NCBI GenBank assembly: GCA_012729815.1
Contig: JAAYCJ010000291.1
Coordinates: 1-37,036 of the forward strand
From: Phycisphaerae bacterium
GTDB lineage: Bacteria > Planctomycetota > Phycisphaerae > JAAYCJ01
Direction: 5' to 3'
Length of the DNA: 37,036 bases
The translations under genes were made by a program, and so were the position numbers. The notes under the pieces were generated by a model. The model was given only the letters and a program-made list of their open reading frames with translations. It did no database searches and was not told where the DNA came from. This document shows positions 22,961 through 37,002 of this stretch, in pieces (positions within the stretch are counted from its first letter, which is position 1; every line of letters starts with the position of its first letter).

Positions 22961-24412
22961 TCACCAGTGGAGCTTCGGCTTTCGCGCCGCCTGCACTTCA
23001 TCGACGCGGCGGACGGGCGTGGTCCACGGCGCTTTGTGCAGCTTGTCCGGATCGGTCTTGGCTTCTTCGGCGATTTGCGCCATCACATCGACGAAGCGGT
23101 CGAGCGTTTCGGTCGTCTCGCTCTCGGTCGGCTCGACCATGATGCACTCGGGCACCGTGATGGGGAAGTACACGGTCGGCGGATGGATGCCGAAGTCGAT
23201 CAGCCGCTTGGCCACGTCGAGGGCGCGGACGCCGTGCTGCTCCTTGATATGCTCGGCGCTGAGGACGAACTCGTGCATGCACGGCAGCGGGTAGGGCAGG
23301 TTGTAGTGATCGCGCAGGCGCGTGGCCAGGTAGTTGGCCGCCACCACGGCCTCTTCCGAGACGCGCCGCAGGCCCGGCAGGCCCAGGCTGCGGATGTAGG
23401 CATAGGCCCGGACCATCACGAGGAACTGGTTGTAGAAGCTGCGCACCCGGCCGATGGATTTGGGGCGGTCGTAATCCCAGACGTAGCGGCCGTCGCGGCG
23501 CTCGACCTGCGGGACGGGAAGGAAGGGCCGCAGATGCTCGGCCACCGCGATCGGGCCCGCTCCCGGTCCGCCGCAGCCGTGCGGAGTCGAGAACGTCTTG
23601 TGCGTGTTGTAGTGCATCACGTCGACGCCGAACTGCCCCGGCTGGATGCGGCCGAGGATCGCGTTCATATTGGCCCCGTCCAGGTACAACTGGGCCCCGC
23701 GGTCGTGCAGGATACGGGCGATTTCGGCAATGTCCCTTTCGAACAGGCCGAGCGTGTTGGGATTGGTGATCATCATCAGGGCGGTCTTGTCGCTGACGTT
23801 GGCCTTCAGGGCGTCCAGATCGATCAGGCCCGCAGCGGTGCTCTTGATGACCGTGACGTACTTGCCCGACAGCGCGCAGCTGGCCGGGTTGGTCCCGTGG
23901 GCGCTGTCGGGGATCAGCACCTGCGGGCGGTCCTCGCCGCGATCGGCGAAGTAGGCACTGACCACCAGCACCGACGTGAACTCGCCCTGGGCGCCGGCGG
24001 CAGGGTGAAGCGAGACCTCAGCCAGGCCCGCGATCTGCTCGAGGTATCCGCGGAGCCGATAGAGCAGTTCCATCGCGCCCTGGACGTCGTCGGCCGGCTG
24101 ATAGGGGTGCAGATCGGTGAAGCCCGGCAGCGAAGCCGCCCACTCGTTGAACTTCGGGTTGTACTTCATCGTGCATGAGCCGAGCGGATAGAAGTTCCGA
24201 TCGACCGACATCATGCGGCAGGCGAGGCTCGTGAAATGCCGCGTCACCTCGCGCTCGGGAAGCTCGGGCAGGTTCGGCGGCGCGGAGGCCGCCTCGGAGC
24301 CCAACACCTCGGCTGGGTCGACCGGCGGCACGTCGCTTTCAGGAAGGACGATTCCGCAGGTTCCCGGCAGATTCGTTTCGGACAGCAATGGTACTGGCGT
24401 CGTTTGGTTCAT
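22961..24412 (-). CDS. gcvPB: Glycine decarboxylase P-protein, subunit 2
   Basis: The 483-residue protein is the PLP-carrying half of split glycine dehydrogenase, which decarboxylates glycine and loads the aminomethyl group on the lipoyl arm of GcvH. Visible landmarks are FYPLGSCTMKYNPK, LHPAAGAQGEFTSVL, DSAHGTNPASCAL, LYLDGANMNAI and HYNTHKTFSTPHG, whose Lys (about 272) binds PLP. The glycine-rich loop after it reads GCGGPG rather than the usual GGGGPG. The ATG at 24412 follows the gcvPA stop by two bases; a GTG at 24418 would overlap that stop as GTGA. Either way the two subunits are translationally coupled. Confidence 0.94.
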   Translation of the reverse strand: MNQTTPVPLLSETNLPGTCGIVLPESDVPPVDPAEVLGSEAASAPPNLPELPEREVTRHFTSLACRMMSVDRNFYPLGSCTMKYNPKFNEWAASLPGFTDLHPYQPADDVQGAMELLYRLRGYLEQIAGLAEVSLHPAAGAQGEFTSVLVVSAYFADRGEDRPQVLIPDSAHGTNPASCALSGKYVTVIKSTAAGLIDLDALKANVSDKTALMMITNPNTLGLFERDIAEIARILHDRGAQLYLDGANMNAILGRIQPGQFGVDVMHYNTHKTFSTPHGCGGPGAGPIAVAEHLRPFLPVPQVERRDGRYVWDYDRPKSIGRVRSFYNQFLVMVRAYAYIRSLGLPGLRRVSEEAVVAANYLATRLRDHYNLPYPLPCMHEFVLSAEHIKEQHGVRALDVAKRLIDFGIHPPTVYFPITVPECIMVEPTESETTETLDRFVDVMAQIAEEAKTDPDKLHKAPWTTPVRRVDEVQAARKPKLHW

Positions 24413-24414
24413 GG

Positions 24415-25764
24415 TCACAGCGTGCTCAACACCTCGACAAATCGGTTCATCTCATCCCGCGTGCGCTTTTCCGTCACCGCGACCAGCAGGCAGTCGGTCA
24501 GGTTTGGATACCAGCGGCCCAGGGGCACGCCGGCCAGGATGTCGTGCTCTTTGGCGGCGGCGAGGACCTTCTCGACTCCGGCTTTGCGGCAGCGGACGAC
24601 GAATTCCTTGAAGACCGGCTGGCCGAACGGCGTCTCGAAGGCATCCAGTTCGGCGATCCGCCGGTGCAGGTATTGGGCTTTCTGGAAGCACAGGTCGGCG
24701 ACCTGGCGGATGCCCTGTTTGCCCATGATGCTCAGGTAGACGGCGGCCCGGATCGCCAGCAGGCCCTCGTTGGTGCAGACGTTGCTGGCGGCGCGTTCGC
24801 GGCGGATGTGCTGCTCGCGGGTCTGAAGGGTCAGGCAGAACGCACGCCGTCCGTCGGCGTCGACGGTCTGTCCGACCAGACGGCCGGGAATACGCCGCAG
24901 ATATTCCTGTCGACACGCCAGGAACCCGAGGTAGGGTCCGCCCAGACCCATCGGCATGCCGAGGCTCTGGCCCTCGCCGACGACAATATCAACCCCGAGC
25001 TGGCCCGGCCGCGTCAGCAGGCCGAGACTGATCGGATCGGCTACGACGATCAGCAGCGTCTTGGGGTGTTTCCTGACCGTCTCGGCGATCTGCGAAAGGG
25101 GTTCGACGCAGCCGAAGAAATTCGGCTGTTGGATGACCACCGCCGCCGTTTCGCCGTTGATCGCCTCCTCCAGTTTCGTCGGGTTCACCCGGCCGTCCGG
25201 CGCCTCGAGGGCGAGCAGATCGTTGGGCCGATGCTGCAGATAGGTGGCGACGACCTGGCGGTACTCCGGGTGGACGTTTGCCGGCAGGATGACCTTGTCC
25301 TTGCCCGTGATGTCCATGGCCATCAGCAGCGCCTCGGCGAGGGCTGATCCGCCCTCGTAGAGCGAGCTGTTGGCCACGTCCATGCCGGTCAGATCGCAGA
25401 CCAGCGACTGGTATTCGAAGAAGGCCTGGAGCGACCCTTGCGACGCTTCGGCCTGGTAGGGGGTGTAGGCGGTGACGAATGCGCTCTGGCCGGCGAGGGC
25501 GTCGACGGCGGGGGGGGTGTAGTGGTCGTACGACCCAGCCCCCAGAAAGCTGATCCGCCCGCCGGCGGGGCGGTTGCGCCCGGCCAGTTCGCGGATCTCC
25601 CGCGCGAGGTTGATCTGGTCGGCGGCGGGTGGAAGGTCGAATTTGGCCTCGGCCATCCGCTGCGAACCTAGAGGGGCGAAGAGCTCATCCGCCGATCTGG
25701 CCCCGATCGTTTGGAGCATCCGCTCGATGTTTTGTTGATTGTGCGTTGATTGAGTCATGGTCAT
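24415..25764 (-). CDS. gcvPA: Glycine decarboxylase P-protein, subunit 1
   Basis: The 449-residue protein is the N-terminal half of split P-protein. It has FLGAGSYDHYTPPAVDAL near residue 75, TAYTPYQAEASQGSLQAFFEYQSLVCDLTGMDVANSSLYEGGSA, and VVIQQPNFFGCVEP. It forms an alpha2beta2 complex with GcvPB. The ATG at 25764 (a second ATG lies two codons later) has no recognisable SD, unusual next to the near-perfect one of gcvH. It follows gcvH by 58 bases and overlaps or abuts gcvPB. Confidence 0.94.
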   Translation of the reverse strand: MTMTQSTHNQQNIERMLQTIGARSADELFAPLGSQRMAEAKFDLPPAADQINLAREIRELAGRNRPAGGRISFLGAGSYDHYTPPAVDALAGQSAFVTAYTPYQAEASQGSLQAFFEYQSLVCDLTGMDVANSSLYEGGSALAEALLMAMDITGKDKVILPANVHPEYRQVVATYLQHRPNDLLALEAPDGRVNPTKLEEAINGETAAVVIQQPNFFGCVEPLSQIAETVRKHPKTLLIVVADPISLGLLTRPGQLGVDIVVGEGQSLGMPMGLGGPYLGFLACRQEYLRRIPGRLVGQTVDADGRRAFCLTLQTREQHIRRERAASNVCTNEGLLAIRAAVYLSIMGKQGIRQVADLCFQKAQYLHRRIAELDAFETPFGQPVFKEFVVRCRKAGVEKVLAAAKEHDILAGVPLGRWYPNLTDCLLVAVTEKRTRDEMNRFVEVLSTL

Positions 25765-30645: not shown

Positions 30646-31341
30646 CTAGAGAGGGTCGACGCCCACGGTCCAGTGTTTGCGGAATAGCTCATAGCCTTCC
30701 GGGTCGGGAAACCTCTCCCAGGCGGCATTCGTGAACGAACCGGTTCTGGCCATCCAACTGGCGTGACCGTCGAGGAAGAGGAAGGTTCCGGAAAACCTGT
30801 GAAGGAGGGCCACATCGTAGTCGTCGATCGGGGAGTGATGGTAGGCTCCGTCGGCTCTTCCCGAGTCGTAGACGTGCCGGCGTTCCGCCATGGCGACCGA
30901 ATTCACCGGTTCGGTCTTGACGTCGTTGAGGATGCCATAAACACAATCGATGCCGGGTTCGCCACCGGGACACGCGCCCCACATATAGCAGTTGGGCCCG
31001 TACGTCACGGCGTTCAGGAGCGGGTCGTACGGCTCGGCGGGGCAGGTGTTGACGTGCCGGTCGTCGGGAATGTACCTGTAGTACGCCATCCTCCATTCCC
31101 AACTGTGCCACCCCTCGACGACCCAGGCGTTGGTGCGGATCAGGCGGTTGTTGTGATCGTTGGCGTAGGTCAGCAGTCCGATGCCCCACTGGCGGAGGTT
31201 GCTCAGGCAGGAGGCCTCCAGCGCCCGCGCTCGTGCCTCACTCAGCGCCGGCAGGAGGATGGCGACCAGCACCGCGATGATGGCGACCACCACCAGCAGC
31301 TCAATCAGAGTGAAACCCATCGATGGCCGATTTGATTTCAT
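30646..31341 (-). CDS. Type II prepilin-like protein with H-X9-DG C-terminal signature
   Basis: The 231-residue protein starts with a class III prepilin leader: MKSNRPSMG, then [21 protein letters not shown], with cleavage between Gly9 and Phe10 and the conserved Glu14 at +5. The rest is a globular pseudopilin-like domain ending with [12 protein letters not shown], in which His181 and Asp191-Gly192 form the H-X9-DG signature typical of a family greatly expanded in Planctomycetota and relatives. Four cysteines lie in the middle (100-133). Its function is unknown: a minor pseudopilin or surface-displayed protein are possibilities. Its position between a sugar-type regulator and a secreted glycosidase, with 17- and 16-base gaps, suggests a role in handling the same polysaccharide. 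AGGAGAT lies before the ATG. Confidence 0.9.
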
Positions 31342-31358: not shown

Positions 31359-32474
31359 CTAAGGGGCCGGATATTCCACCCGCTGTGAGGTCAGCCGGAC
31401 CACGCCTTTGGGCATTTGTCCAGTCAGGACCCAGCGTTGGACCAGGTCGGAGGCCAACGATATCATCTGTTCGTAATCGGAGTCCCAGAACCGCCGCACG
31501 TGGCGCGTGAAGCCGCGGCTGCCGGTGTGCCGTTGCCCGATCGACAGCGTGCTGATCGCCACGTTGGGGAACTTCTGGGCCAGTCCGGTTTCCACCACGA
31601 CGTAGTCGAGGAACGTGCCCTGAGTGCAGAAGACGGCGTCGTAGCCGCCTTCAGCCAGCAGACGCTCCACGTGGGGTGCGTAGACGTCCACATCGGAGAA
31701 ATCGCGATGCGTGAATCGATGGCCCATCCGCGAGATGGGCAGTTGCACCACCGTCACGTCGGTTTCTCTCTTGAGTTCAATTGAGGCGTCGCGGATGCCC
31801 CGCGTGATCTCCTCGTAGGCGCTGATCCGCAGGTCGTCGATCAGGACGAGCAAACGCTTGTGGCCGGACTCGTCGAGCAGATGCCGGCCGATATCAGTTC
31901 CGGTGGCGTGGAAATCCTGGACGACCGCGGGCAACTCGGCTCCGCGCAGGAGGCGGTCGATCAGAACCACCGGCACGCGGCGGGCCAGGTCGGCGAAGAA
32001 CTGGCCGTTGGGGTCGTCGTCGATCGGCCAGACCACCAGGCCCCTGATCCCGTTGGCCAGAAAGTGCTCAGCCACTTCGCGTTCGCGGATCGGGTCGTCT
32101 TCGGAACTGCGGACCACGGCGAAATTGGACCGGTTGGCGAATGCCTTGTCGATCCACTCCATCACGCTCATGTGGAAGGAGAGGGAGACGGTGTACGGCT
32201 GGATGAACCCGAAGGTGATGGCGGTCCGGCGGCAGTTTTCGTCGTCGATGACCCGGACGTCGCGGCCGTGGTGGGCCACGACGACGCCGAGGTCGGCCAA
32301 CTCGCGGGTTGCCCGCTGGACGACCTTGGGACTGACCCCCAACTCGCGGCTGAGCGTCCGGACCGAAGGCAGCGGCTGGCCGGTCCGGTACTGGCCGGTG
32401 CGGACCCGCTGCTGGAGCGTTCGAGCCACCTGCCGGTACAGAGGCAAGCGATTGCCGGTTACCACCTCGACCAT
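31359..32474 (-). CDS. GntR-type regulator with LacI-like sugar-binding domain
   Basis: The 371-residue protein combines an N-terminal GntR winged helix (about 11-75: PLYRQVARTLQQRV, GQPLPSVRTLSRELGVSPKVVQRATRELADLGVV, HHGRDVRVI) with a LacI/periplasmic-binding-like domain (about 85-371: ITFGFIQPY, GIRGLVVWPID, VPVVLIDR, GTDIGRHLLDESGHKRLLVL, YDAVFCTQG). This is the AraR-type arrangement, where a sugar releases the repressor from DNA. I start it at the ATG at 32474, where homology begins, with AGGGA about ten bases upstream; a frame open to 32540 would read through the operator-like repeat. It heads the regulator-prepilin-glycosidase operon and probably controls itself. Confidence 0.9.
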   Translation of the reverse strand: MVEVVTGNRLPLYRQVARTLQQRVRTGQYRTGQPLPSVRTLSRELGVSPKVVQRATRELADLGVVVAHHGRDVRVIDDENCRRTAITFGFIQPYTVSLSFHMSVMEWIDKAFANRSNFAVVRSSEDDPIREREVAEHFLANGIRGLVVWPIDDDPNGQFFADLARRVPVVLIDRLLRGAELPAVVQDFHATGTDIGRHLLDESGHKRLLVLIDDLRISAYEEITRGIRDASIELKRETDVTVVQLPISRMGHRFTHRDFSDVDVYAPHVERLLAEGGYDAVFCTQGTFLDYVVVETGLAQKFPNVAISTLSIGQRHTGSRGFTRHVRRFWDSDYEQMISLASDLVQRWVLTGQMPKGVVRLTSQRVEYPAP

Positions 32475-32531
32475 TTCGCAGGTCCCTATAGTACTACAGT
32501 GCAACAGATAGTAAGCATGTAAGTAGCTGTA

Positions 32532-32550
32532 CGATAGCACGTTGCTATCG
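32532..32550. promoter_or_regulatory. Operator-like perfect inverted repeat in the regulator's leader
   Basis: CGATAGC (32532-32538) and GCTATCG (32544-32550) are a perfect inverted repeat around ACGTT. It lies about 15-33 bases downstream of the predicted start site of the regulator gene, a position suited to blocking RNA polymerase. A smaller palindrome, TAGTACTA, lies at 32489-32496. Confidence 0.6.
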
Positions 32551-32617: not shown

Positions 32618-32637
32618 TCGAGACTATTTGGTCTCGA
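32618..32637 (-). terminator. Hairpin overlapping the cyclase stop codon
   Basis: TCGAGAC (32618-32624) and GTCTCGA (32631-32637) form a perfect 7-base stem with a 6-base loop that contains most of the adenylate cyclase stop codon. It would separate this operon from the promoter about 20 bases further on. No T-run follows. Confidence 0.45.
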
Positions 32638-35545
32638 GTTCGATCACGCCCGCGCGATGGAGTTCGGGGGTGGTCAGGAGTTCGCGGTAGATGCGGAGTG
32701 GCTGGTCTTTCTGGCCGAGCGGGGTTTGGCGAAGCTGGTCGGCGAGGGCGGAGGCCTGGGAGAACTCGGCCTGCCAGTAGTGGTGGATCATGCGCCCGAA
32801 GCCTTCAATGAAGGCGCTGAGTTCCCGCGGGTCGGCCTGGTCGGCCCAGTGGATCAGTTCGTAGACGACGACCGGTTTTTCACGGCCGACGACGCGGATC
32901 TTGCCCAGCAGGCGCGCCGGCAGTCCCTCGCCCATCCGGCTGTGGGTCTCCTGCGAGATCATGGTCAGCGTGCCGAAGAACTTGTTGGCGGTTTCGAGTC
33001 GCGAGGCGAGGTTGACGGTGTCGCCGAGGCAGGTGTAGTCGAACTTCCGGGCCGAGCCGCAGTCGCCGATGACCGCCGGGCCGCTGCTGATCCCGATCCG
33101 CATCTTCATCGATCCGGGCAGGTCGAAGCCGATGGTGCGCAGGTGCTCCTCGACGTGCGGCAGGTATTTCTGGCACTCGATGGCGGCCAGGCAAGCCCGT
33201 CTCGCGTGGTCCGGCTGGGGGTTCAGCGGCGGGTTGAAGAAGGCGAAGATGCCGTCGCCCTGGAACTTGTTGATGAAAGCCTCCTGCTGATCAAGCACCT
33301 CGCTCATGTGCTCGAGGTAGATGTTCAGGAGGTTGACGACTTCCTGCGGGGCCATGGGCTCGCTCAGGTGCGTGAAGCCCGCCAGGTCGCTGAAGAAGCA
33401 GGTGACCTCCTGCTGCTGCGGGGGGAGAGTCAGCGATCGCGGTTCGGCCACGATGCGTCTGACCAGCGTCGTATTGGTGTACTGTCCGAGCCGCGAGGCG
33501 AACAGTCGCTTGGTGCGGCCTTCGGTCACCTGGTAGTAGAGGGTGACCAGCGACCAACTGATGAACATGGCGGCCATGGGTCCGGTGACGTTGCTGATGA
33601 TGTGCCATCGGCCGAAGACCAGGACAAAGCTGACGGCGGCGTAGGCGGCCAGGAGGATCAGCATCCAGAGCAGGCCCTGGCCGGCCGAGCGCTGGGAAGC
33701 GGTCAGGATGGTGACCACCATGCCCATCGCCAGAACCACCAGCAGGTTCGTGTTGCGGTCGCTCTCGTAGAGGTAGGAGTCTTCCAGCACCTGGTTGATG
33801 ATGTTGGCCAGGACGATCACGCCGGGACATGGATGCTCGTCGAAGACGGGCGTGGCGACGGTATCGGCGAGGGTGGTGGCGGTATAGCCGAACAGGACGA
33901 TTTTGTCTTCGATTCTGGGGCGAAGCTCGGCCAGGGCGGATTCGATCGAGGCCTCGATGTCGGCGTTGATGCGGCGAACCGTCTCGGGCTCGAAGACGCA
34001 GCGGTAGAGATTGATCACGTGCTGCTCTTCCTCGCTCATCTCGTTCGGAGCGAGGGAGGCGAGGTCTTCGTAGCTCATTTCCAGCGTTTCGGCGGCCCGT
34101 TTTTCGATCTGGGCGATCTCGTCCTGCGTGCGTGCCAGTTCGAGGCGAATGTCGTCGGCCAGCGACAGTGTCGGCTGCGTGGCGGCGGCGGTTGCCGGCT
34201 GGGTTGCCGGGTGGGTTGCCGGCTGGGTATCGGCGCGGGCGTCGATCGGGCAGCTATCCTGGAGCCACTGCCTTCGCTGCTTGAGCTTGCCGTAGCGTTC
34301 GTACTGGGTGGGCAGGAACTGCTGGACGCTCAGGTCGGCGGCGGAGTCCAGGAGAAACCGGTTCTGGTCGAGGGCATCGCGGTTAAACGCGACGTCGAGG
34401 AGCTTGGCGGCGGGGATCTGGTTGTCGAAGCTGTGCTGCCAGCGGTCGGGCCACTTGAGCCAGCGGCCGGTCTGGCGATAGTACCAGTTGACGATCAGCC
34501 GGCCGTCGGACCCGAGCGGGATGGTCCTGACCGGTCCGCCGTCCTCGGCTGGACCCAACTGGATCCGATCCTCGCCCAGGTGCAGAGGCAGGCCGAGGTG
34601 CTGGCTGACGGTGGCCAGAGCGAGTTGGCGGTAGATCACGTTGTCGTGGACCGACAGGAGCGAGAGCTTGCGGAGCTTGCCGTCGAGGTCGGTCTGGGTC
34701 GAGTAGTCGACGAAGCCGGCGTCGCGGGCGGCCGAGGCCAGCGCCGCCACCGGCACCTGCATGGGCGAGTGGTCGCTGGGGCGGTAAACGGCGGGGGACA
34801 GGATATCGCCGGAGAGGGTCAGGCCGGACTTGGCACGGATCGTCAGGTAGGCCCGGGCGTAATGGTAGGCGTCTTCCAGTTCTCGCCGCCAGTCCGTCTG
34901 GCGCAGCCACTGGTCGACGAGGAGTTTCTGGAGGAGTTGGTCCAGCGTCAGAGCGGGATCGGCCTGGAGGGTTTCGACGGCGAGGCCGCGGGCGGCCATC
35001 CGCCGGATCGTGGCGAAGTTCGCCCGAACCTGTTCGAGGGGCAAGCTTGACCGGGCGGCCAGTTCCCGCGGCGTCAGGTCCATCTCGGACTTGATCGCCT
35101 CGACGGCTTGGGGAAACGCAGCCCCCGCGCCGAAGTAGAACGCCAAGACTGCTCCTCCCTGAGTGTGCAGGGCTTGGGCCAGCATGGCGTCTTCGGCGTT
35201 GACGGATTCGGAGTCGCGGCCCTGGCGGACCTGCGGCCGCGTGTAGGTGAAATCGATCAGAAGCTGTCGGCCTCCCAGTTCGGCCACCAGTTCGATGATG
35301 CCGGCCACGTAGGACCGCGGCCAGGGCCACTGCTGCACGGCGGCCAGCGAGTTGTCGTCCACCGCGATCAGGCACAGTTCGCCGCTGTCCGAGACGGTGG
35401 GGATGAGCTTGTGGCGCAAGTCGACGGCAACGGCTTCGATGCGGTCGAGGGAGCCGACCTGAAGGGCGATCGCCACCAGCAGGGTTCCGATCAGACCCAT
35501 GCCGATCGTGGCCAGGGTTGTCCAGACTGCTCTTGTGCTCCGCAC
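32624..35545 (-). CDS. CHASE2-domain class III adenylate/guanylate cyclase
   Basis: The 973-residue protein has an N-terminal membrane helix (about 8-30), an extracytoplasmic CHASE2 sensor (about 35-590), three membrane helices (about 600-617, 624-645, 652-672) and a cytoplasmic class III cyclase domain (about 713-935). CFFSDLAGFTHLSE holds the first metal Asp720, and NKFQGDGIFAFF holds Lys760 and the second metal Asp764. FDYTCLGDTVNLASRLE holds the purine-selecting Asp and the Asn/Arg that stabilise the transition state. All points to an active cAMP-forming enzyme. The CHASE2 domain is enlarged by a polar insertion (about 380-540) that includes a Pro-Ala-Thr-Gln repeat at 440-459. The start is GTG at 35545 with a weak SD. 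It lies 57 bases after the HTH gene. Confidence 0.9.
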   Translation of the reverse strand: MRSTRAVWTTLATIGMGLIGTLLVAIALQVGSLDRIEAVAVDLRHKLIPTVSDSGELCLIAVDDNSLAAVQQWPWPRSYVAGIIELVAELGGRQLLIDFTYTRPQVRQGRDSESVNAEDAMLAQALHTQGGAVLAFYFGAGAAFPQAVEAIKSEMDLTPRELAARSSLPLEQVRANFATIRRMAARGLAVETLQADPALTLDQLLQKLLVDQWLRQTDWRRELEDAYHYARAYLTIRAKSGLTLSGDILSPAVYRPSDHSPMQVPVAALASAARDAGFVDYSTQTDLDGKLRKLSLLSVHDNVIYRQLALATVSQHLGLPLHLGEDRIQLGPAEDGGPVRTIPLGSDGRLIVNWYYRQTGRWLKWPDRWQHSFDNQIPAAKLLDVAFNRDALDQNRFLLDSAADLSVQQFLPTQYERYGKLKQRRQWLQDSCPIDARADTQPATHPATQPATAAATQPTLSLADDIRLELARTQDEIAQIEKRAAETLEMSYEDLASLAPNEMSEEEQHVINLYRCVFEPETVRRINADIEASIESALAELRPRIEDKIVLFGYTATTLADTVATPVFDEHPCPGVIVLANIINQVLEDSYLYESDRNTNLLVVLAMGMVVTILTASQRSAGQGLLWMLILLAAYAAVSFVLVFGRWHIISNVTGPMAAMFISWSLVTLYYQVTEGRTKRLFASRLGQYTNTTLVRRIVAEPRSLTLPPQQQEVTCFFSDLAGFTHLSEPMAPQEVVNLLNIYLEHMSEVLDQQEAFINKFQGDGIFAFFNPPLNPQPDHARRACLAAIECQKYLPHVEEHLRTIGFDLPGSMKMRIGISSGPAVIGDCGSARKFDYTCLGDTVNLASRLETANKFFGTLTMISQETHSRMGEGLPARLLGKIRVVGREKPVVVYELIHWADQADPRELSAFIEGFGRMIHHYWQAEFSQASALADQLRQTPLGQKDQPLRIYRELLTTPELHRAGVIELETK

Positions 35546-35602
35546 GGAGTGCTACTCTCGCCGCCACCCGCGTTCCGCTGCGGGGCGAAGGTCAGAACCC
35601 GG

Positions 35603-36463
35603 TCATCGCCGGCCGATGAAGAACCCGACGACCACACTGATTACGGTAACCAACACCGCGCCCAGCACCGGGTAGAGAATGTTCGAGGCGATGGTCTGCA
35701 GGATGCCCGGCAGGACGCCCGCGGTCAGGCTGGCGGCGACGAAACCGGCGAAACCCAGCAGGATCAGTGAGGCGACCAGAAAGCCGGAAAACAGGCCGGC
35801 CATCGGATCGGCTGCGGTGGCCGCCACGACGCGCGGCGCCGGAGCGGCGGCGGGAACCGGTTCCTCGACCTCCTCGAAGCCGGCCGCCTCGGCGGCTTCC
35901 GCAGTGGCGGGAACCCTGGAGTCGGGCATTGTCTCTTCGCCCGAGTAGATCTCGTCGAGCACGCCGCCCAGTGAGGTGTCGTCGCTCTCGCGGCTCAGAT
36001 CGAGGAGGCCCGAACCGCTGCTGCCGCCGCCTTCGATGGAGAGTTCCTCGGAGACCGACGGGGCGATCTGCGTCTTGGCCATCGGGTCGGCGTCCAGGCC
36101 CGCCAGTTCGTCCTCGTCGAAGACGTTGACGCCGGCCGGCGTGATGACGGTGTCCTCGTTCTTGGGGGCATCCTGCGTCGGGGTATGCTCGCCGGACTCA
36201 TCGAGGGTGATCACGTCGGAACCGCCGTCGGTCGAGTCGACCGGCAGCAGTTCGATCGCCGATTCGCTGGCCCCGTCGCCGGTGGTGCCCACGGAGGGGT
36301 TCAGTTCCGCGGCCAGGTCGTCCACCTCAGCAACCTTGTATCTCTGTTCGCCTTCGACGCGGAATTCGCGCAGACGGCCTTCGCGGACCAGGTGGCTGAG
36401 CTGATCCTGAGTCAAGGCCAGCTTGTTGAGGGTCTGCTGAAGTGTGTAGTAGTCAACGGCCAT
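35603..36463 (-). CDS. Membrane-anchored protein with excisionase-like HTH domain
   Basis: The 286-residue protein begins with a MerR/excisionase-like winged helix (YYTLQQTLNKLALTQDQLSHLVREGRLREFRVEGEQRYKVAEVDDLA, about 4-50). A long acidic, low-complexity linker rich in Asp, Glu, Ser and Gly follows (about 55-205). Two or three membrane helices end the chain (about 220-284: FSGFLVASLILLGFAGFVAASL and ILYPVLGAVLVTVISVVVGFFIGRR). The layout suggests DNA or protein binding tethered to the inner membrane. I prefer the second ATG (36463), since GGGAGG lies five bases upstream; the first ATG at 36466 would leave two. It sits between a small exported protein and the cyclase in one operon. Function is not established. 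Confidence 0.78.
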   Translation of the reverse strand: MAVDYYTLQQTLNKLALTQDQLSHLVREGRLREFRVEGEQRYKVAEVDDLAAELNPSVGTTGDGASESAIELLPVDSTDGGSDVITLDESGEHTPTQDAPKNEDTVITPAGVNVFDEDELAGLDADPMAKTQIAPSVSEELSIEGGGSSGSGLLDLSRESDDTSLGGVLDEIYSGEETMPDSRVPATAEAAEAAGFEEVEEPVPAAAPAPRVVAATAADPMAGLFSGFLVASLILLGFAGFVAASLTAGVLPGILQTIASNILYPVLGAVLVTVISVVVGFFIGRR

Positions 36464-36508
36464 CATGACCTCCCATCGCGGAAAAAGCTCACCGTGCTTC
36501 CTCTATTG

Positions 36509-36910
36509 TTATTTTAGTGGTTCGGTGGGTGGATTTTCCAATTTTTTCACGTCCGGCGGCGGCTCTTCCTGCCCGACAACGAGTTGTGCCACTTCGCTGG
36601 GGACCGGGGGGGCGCAGTTGTATTCTTCGAGATAGCGGTCGTACATCCAGCTCCGGGCGGCGAGGAGTTTGAGCTGGTTGCCCGGGCGTTTGAGGTGATA
36701 GATCCAGAGGGTGCCGGCGTCGGCGTCGACCATGATGATGCCGTACTCGTCGCGGTCGATCTGGCCGGTGAATGCCATCACGCCTCCGGCGCTGCCGGCT
36801 CGCATCGGCTGGGCGAGGGCGAGGTCGCCGTGAGGTCCGGTCATGAGGATGCCCGCGAAGAGGCCCCCGACGAAGATGCCGGCGGCGGTGATCATGTGCC
36901 TGGAGTGCAT
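36509..36910 (-). CDS. Small exported or membrane-anchored hypothetical protein
   Basis: I do not recognise the 133-residue protein. It has an N-terminal hydrophobic segment (about 6-24: MITAAGIFVGGLFAGILM) and a possible signal-peptidase site near DLALAQP (about residue 33). A small domain follows: FTGQIDRDEYGIIMVDADAGTLWIYHL, which looks like beta strands, then LKLLAARSWMYDRYLEEYN. A Pro/Glu-rich tail closes it. A strong SD (AGGAG) lies seven bases before the ATG. It is the first gene of the operon that goes on to the HTH protein (45 bases away) and the cyclase, so a role in the same signalling route is likely but unproven. Confidence 0.75.
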   Translation of the reverse strand: MHSRHMITAAGIFVGGLFAGILMTGPHGDLALAQPMRAGSAGGVMAFTGQIDRDEYGIIMVDADAGTLWIYHLKRPGNQLKLLAARSWMYDRYLEEYNCAPPVPSEVAQLVVGQEEPPPDVKKLENPPTEPLK

Positions 36911-36974
36911 TGGAAAGCTCCTGGGACCGCGTTTGGCTTAAACCGGTGCTCTACCATTACTTACATCAACGGTC

Positions 36975-37002
36975 ATTATATCGCGGCGGAACGCGGCTGC
37001 AA
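36975..37002 (-). promoter_or_regulatory. Sigma70-type promoter for the cyclase operon
   Basis: Read leftward, a perfect TATAAT (36980-36975) is preceded by TTGCAG (37002-36997) with a 16-base spacer. The start site would be near 36968, about 58 bases before the first ATG at 36910. Confidence 0.6.

Follow-up and report, generated by a model that had tools for sequence, protein, structure and literature searches.

What does a compact run of three leftward genes in a Phycisphaerae genome encode: a dedicated cAMP signalling operon, or a more general piece of planctomycete biology with a cyclase beside it? The window analysed here is a stretch of 37,036 nucleotides (contig C291 of a 5.5 Mb draft genome), and within it the genes P1, P2 and P3 follow one another with gaps of 42 bp (P1/P2) and 57 bp (P2/P3) by their ORF coordinates (Table 1), confirming the close leftward spacing described in an earlier note on this DNA; the same P1-P2-P3 order is kept in both same-family relatives (L041 and L042). 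A perfect TATAAT promoter had also been proposed to head the operon. The hexamer is indeed present, but it is one of three such copies in the window, its -35 partner is poor, and the site was absent from the output of a consensus promoter scanner. The element GATATAATG upstream of P1 is shared with the same-family relative L042. At the other end, the GntR-type regulator gene that comes next after P3 possesses its own and better promoter-like site (TTGACG-18-TATACT, 32602-32573), so the transcription unit probably ends after P3; a scan of the operon region found no intrinsic terminators. This neighbouring gene (31359-32540) fuses a GntR-type HTH to a LacI-type ligand-binding domain, and the window further holds a pseudopilin-like protein bearing a methylation motif at its N-terminus (30646-31341) and a split glycine decarboxylase (GcvPA/GcvPB; 22961-25764).

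Table 1. Predicted genes, domains and promoter element of the P1-P2-P3 locus, in window coordinates
Feature	Position	Strand	Description
TATAAT -10 element	36975..36980	-	putative operon promoter; perfect; -35 partner TTGCAG poor
P1	36509..36910	-	133 aa, exported (predicted)
P1 TM or signal helix	36842-36901	-	N-terminal hydrophobic helix
P1 four-stranded beta meander	about 36650-36781	-	AF2, then C-terminal helix
P2	35603..36466	-	287 aa, HTH-linker-membrane protein
P2 winged HTH	36302..36463	-	excisionase/MerR/BldC-like fold; residues 1-54, pLDDT mostly above 90
P2 acidic disordered linker	35810..36301	-	residues 55-218; 36 D/E, 5 K/R; net charge -31
P2 linker motif	35939..36019	-	class consensus GSGSGLLDLTRESDDTSLGAELLDEIYPG; nearly invariant
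P2 two TM helices, short loop	35609..35806 (35720-35806, 35609-35677)	-	AF2 + hydropathy; residues 220-248, 263-285
P3	32624..35545	-	973 aa, CHASE2-TM-class III adenylate cyclase
P3 CHASE2 domain	33719..35482	-	split by insertion; CHASE2 match 1.2e-33
P3 cyclase domain	32873..33418	-	Guanylate_cyc match 1.7e-20

Structure prediction shows P1 as an exported protein that would fold as a small beta meander (AlphaFold2 model, mean pLDDT 78). The Pfam search placed P1 in no family, no sequence relative was found in the PDB, and the fold search returned no confident match, with propeller-blade fragments and YmzC all at E above 0.1. The suggestion that P1 might be lipoprotein-like fared poorly, as a lipobox-like pattern is rare (4 of 83 P1 sequences) compared with an AxA-type signal-peptidase (SPase I-like) site (56 of 83), and the sole Cys of the window's P1 sits well away from the signal helix, in the C-terminal half. 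Some genomes carry P1 as a tandem pair (L025:2064-2863; also G101, G132 and G224).

For P2, the architecture proposed from the DNA alone was borne out by AlphaFold2, hydropathy and orthologue profile matches: a winged HTH head, a long disordered acidic linker and two TM helices, the latter forming a C-terminal membrane anchor as shown by prediction. A putatively cytoplasmic HTH is in this way joined to a TM segment, as in ToxR and CadC. The best-conserved part of P2 is a linker motif, SGSGLLDLTRESDDTSLGAELLDEIYPG, which ranks ahead of the HTH itself and for which a search of 41 genomes gave no convincing match outside P2.

P3 likewise proved to be the CHASE2 cyclase that the earlier note had read in it, with both domains scoring over their curated cut-offs. 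Motif reading and alignment to CyaB (3r5g) placed the metal-binding residues D719 and D764, the adenine-specifying K760 and T838, and the transition-state N845 and R849, so that by its sequence P3 carries the catalytic residues that a class III adenylate cyclase should have. It is the sole CHASE2 protein of its genome, which encodes one cNMP-binding protein elsewhere.

Searching draft genomes with automated ORF calls and HMMs revealed that these genes differ greatly in how widely they travel together. Of 101 class relatives, 96 have P2, usually as a single gene, and 76 have P1. At 105 unique class loci with flanks, where adjacency was called by an automated stop-to-stop ORF analysis and gaps are hence approximate, P1 lay directly upstream of P2 in 86. 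The commonest third gene encoded an OmpA-family lipoprotein immediately downstream of P2 (65 of the 105 loci). These loci have in their cluster the OmpA/Pal lipoprotein that a Tol-Pal-like envelope bridge would call for, but in the window genome and both other family genomes the OmpA-like orthologue is unlinked, on another contig. A CHASE2 cyclase followed P2 at only 3 of the 105 loci (the window, G001 and G002), all from one family. The earlier note had framed the locus as a possible signalling operon in which a P2-type protein is encoded with a cyclase; its list of parts was right, and the link to the cyclase is limited to the window's family, P2 orthologues being mostly without cyclase neighbours.

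Across the phylum, with class members counted in, 235 of the 294 genomes sampled encode a P2-like protein and 203 encode P1. Among the out-of-class genomes listed as having both, 77 of 85 held P1 and P2 within 1.5 kb of each other, a criterion of distance on one contig irrespective of strand. Genome comparison at this level shows that the P1-P2 pair keeps its order and strand across the Planctomycetota, usually in one copy per genome. Named P2 relatives in GTDB mostly carry the label Phycisphaerae or Planctomycetota, and the two same-family contigs belong to Phycisphaerae MAGs. The P1-P2-OmpA order also occurs outside the class (L226, L227, L233, L234, L244, L248 and L250). At L246, L247 and L249 an apparent FGE-sulfatase (SUMF1-like) gene replaces the OmpA-like third gene, with Pfam confirmation only for L246. 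The out-of-class loci L215-L217 and L219 possess no P1 and encode P2-like proteins with long Ser-Asp-rich linkers, which in L215, L217 and L219 are very long and full of SDSDVRLV and DSGISLE repeats.

How, then, does the cyclase relate to the pair? P3 could be a mere co-transcribed neighbour occupying a slot vacated by the OmpA-like gene, with no functional tie to P1-P2, as the unlinked OmpA-like orthologue in all three family genomes and the variability of the third slot across the phylum would suggest; yet the adjacency is kept in three genera whose P2 proteins are only about 60% identical, and we hold this account to be possible, if on the unlikely side. That same adjacency, maintained in all three family genomes despite P3 identities of only 31-46%, could instead speak for a single signalling pathway in which CHASE2 senses outside, cAMP is the output and P2 is partner or target. 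Consistent with such a pathway are the catalytic residues of P3, its standing as the genome's only CHASE2 protein alongside one cNMP-binding protein, and the precedent of S. meliloti, where CHASE2 cyclases sense via the outer-membrane protein NsrA (PMC13001267). P3-like cyclases of other families are, however, unlinked to P2, many class genomes possess P1-P2 without any CHASE2 protein, and the linkage comes from three genomes only, so that we consider a single pathway unlikely, with a functional link of the module to the cyclase in the window's family being possible. Among the neighbours of CHASE2 cyclases in other families we found no common partner; in other class members the CHASE2 cyclase is sometimes near a beta-barrel-like or FecR-like protein (L198, L203, L205 and L206).

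The second question is whether the P2 head binds DNA. By winged HTH profile and fold it belongs with the HTH_17/excisionase family: the window's P2 scores weakly against HTH_17 (E 0.02, 15.6 bits, under the cut-off of 27), all 27 P2 orthologues scanned match HTH_17 (best 2.2e-9), and TIGR01764, the NCBIfam excisionase model, is matched by 11 of 31 P2 sequences. Foldseek matches to the head comprise BldC, Pukovnik Xis, GlnR, RacA and CbpM (3ucs); no E value was under 0.05, which is in line with the head being a single small domain within a model that is largely disordered. The basic recognition helix of the excisionase family is what P2 lacks. In an alignment made by eye, as was the HTH_17 consensus string itself, the window reads TQDQLSHLV (-1) and the class typically SEDELKELV, against SRSTVYRLI (+2) for HTH_17. 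The helix has no net positive charge in 95% of the 107 sequences from the class and in 81% of the 27 from outgroups, and its mean net charge is -1.3 and -1.0, respectively, compared with +1 to +2 in Xis and several HTH_17 proteins of the same genome (one own-genome match has -1). Such a helix argues against canonical DNA binding by P2, as far as can be judged from residue charge, and makes a standard DNA-binding role unlikely; the wing retains the basic residues R32, R35 and K43, which leave room for weak DNA binding.

These data bear directly on the reading of P2 as a membrane-tethered transcription regulator with ToxR/CadC-like logic, with P1 or the membrane part as the sensor of a signal and the HTH reaching promoter DNA from the membrane. 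The uniform HTH_17 profile matches, the partial TIGR01764 matches and the fold resemblance to DNA-bound BldC, Xis, GlnR and RacA all favour it, but the helix charge departs from that of Xis, the HTH_17 consensus and the own-genome proteins, and an acidic linker of about 160 residues would be unfavourable to DNA contact; we judge such a regulator improbable. A mobile-element origin of P2 as an excisionase-type protein, to which only the excisionase-like HTH points, is contradicted by a phylum-wide distribution at mostly one copy per genome, a membrane anchor and conserved chromosomal neighbours, and we rejected it as having almost nothing to recommend it. With the cyclase linkage family-specific and the HTH an unlikely DNA binder, both outcomes that the earlier note had named as grounds against its proposal, orthologues scattered without cyclase neighbours and an HTH without a basic recognition helix, are largely what we found.

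We therefore tentatively favour, at somewhat less than even confidence, the view that P2 and P1, often with the OmpA lipoprotein, form an uncharacterised envelope module found across the phylum, and that one Phycisphaerae family has added a cAMP cyclase to it. In this envelope module P2 would serve as an adaptor tethered to the membrane, with an HTH that, like that of CbpM, binds protein and not DNA; the HTH head and linker motif would recruit a cytoplasmic partner, and the membrane part would assemble with periplasmic P1. In most relatives the OmpA-like lipoprotein would link this assembly to peptidoglycan or to the outer membrane, and in the window's family the CHASE2 cyclase would take the third slot and be co-transcribed, so that cAMP output may be coupled to the module, through expression at the least and perhaps also through contact. 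We infer this scaffold mechanism from the build of the proteins, their conservation and the precedent set by CbpM: from the frequencies given above for P2, for the upstream P1, for the OmpA-like gene and for pairing outside the class, and from the neutral or acidic recognition helix, the P2-specific motif that outranks the HTH, and the CbpM fold match. Counting against it are the changing third gene (OmpA-like, FGE-sulfatase-like, cyclase or none), the 20 of 120 class loci (a set that includes same-contig repeats) with no P1 match in the stretch after iterated search, and an out-of-class family, f62 (L239, L240, L241 and L242), with P1 and no detectable P2 beside it. A bolder version, in which P1, P2 and the OmpA-like lipoprotein make up a Planctomycetota-specific trans-envelope complex that uses a repurposed DNA-binding fold to link a cytoplasmic system to the wall and, in the window's family, also controls the cAMP cyclase, strikes us as doubtful.

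Several known systems resemble parts of the module. RodZ is a membrane protein with a cytoplasmic HTH head (HTH_25) used for protein binding, plus a periplasmic domain; its likeness to P2 is one of architecture, as the HTH families differ, RodZ alone has the periplasmic domain, and no sequence relation is implied. E. coli CbpM is a co-chaperone regulator that binds a J-domain. Its MerR-like HTH has been described as devoid of the residues for DNA contact and as having a protein for its target (PMC4063869). P2 shares the MerR-type HTH with CbpM, whereas CbpM is a soluble coiled-coil dimer and P2 has an acidic linker and membrane anchor. The HTH_17/TIGR01764 excisionases and BldC share winged HTH sequence and fold with P2 and differ from it in that P2 is membrane tethered and its helix neutral or acidic. 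Tol-Pal and OmpA-type wall anchors similarly have an OmpA-family lipoprotein encoded with inner-membrane partners, although no relative of TolA, TolB, TolQ or TolR was identified in the operon, and P1 and P2 are unrelated families. Sinorhizobium CyaD1, CyaD2 and CyaK combine CHASE2 and class III cyclase domains as P3 does, but their partner is NsrA, an outer-membrane beta barrel (PMC13001267), and not P1-P2. The open-access literature searched contained no paper on the P1-P2 module, though one may still exist, and it yielded nothing on excisionase proteins from Phycisphaerae or planctomycetes, nor on planctomycete CHASE2.

The cell envelopes of Planctomycetota are unusual, and the phylum has many genes of its own to which no function has been assigned, among them 108 phylum-specific essential genes reported from Planctopirus limnophila (PMC10632474). 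Our observations suggest that the profile-library label "excisionase family DNA-binding protein" misdescribes the function of P2, and the widespread P1-P2 pair, with its repeatedly linked wall-binding lipoprotein, offers a concrete candidate for a core system of the phylum's envelope.
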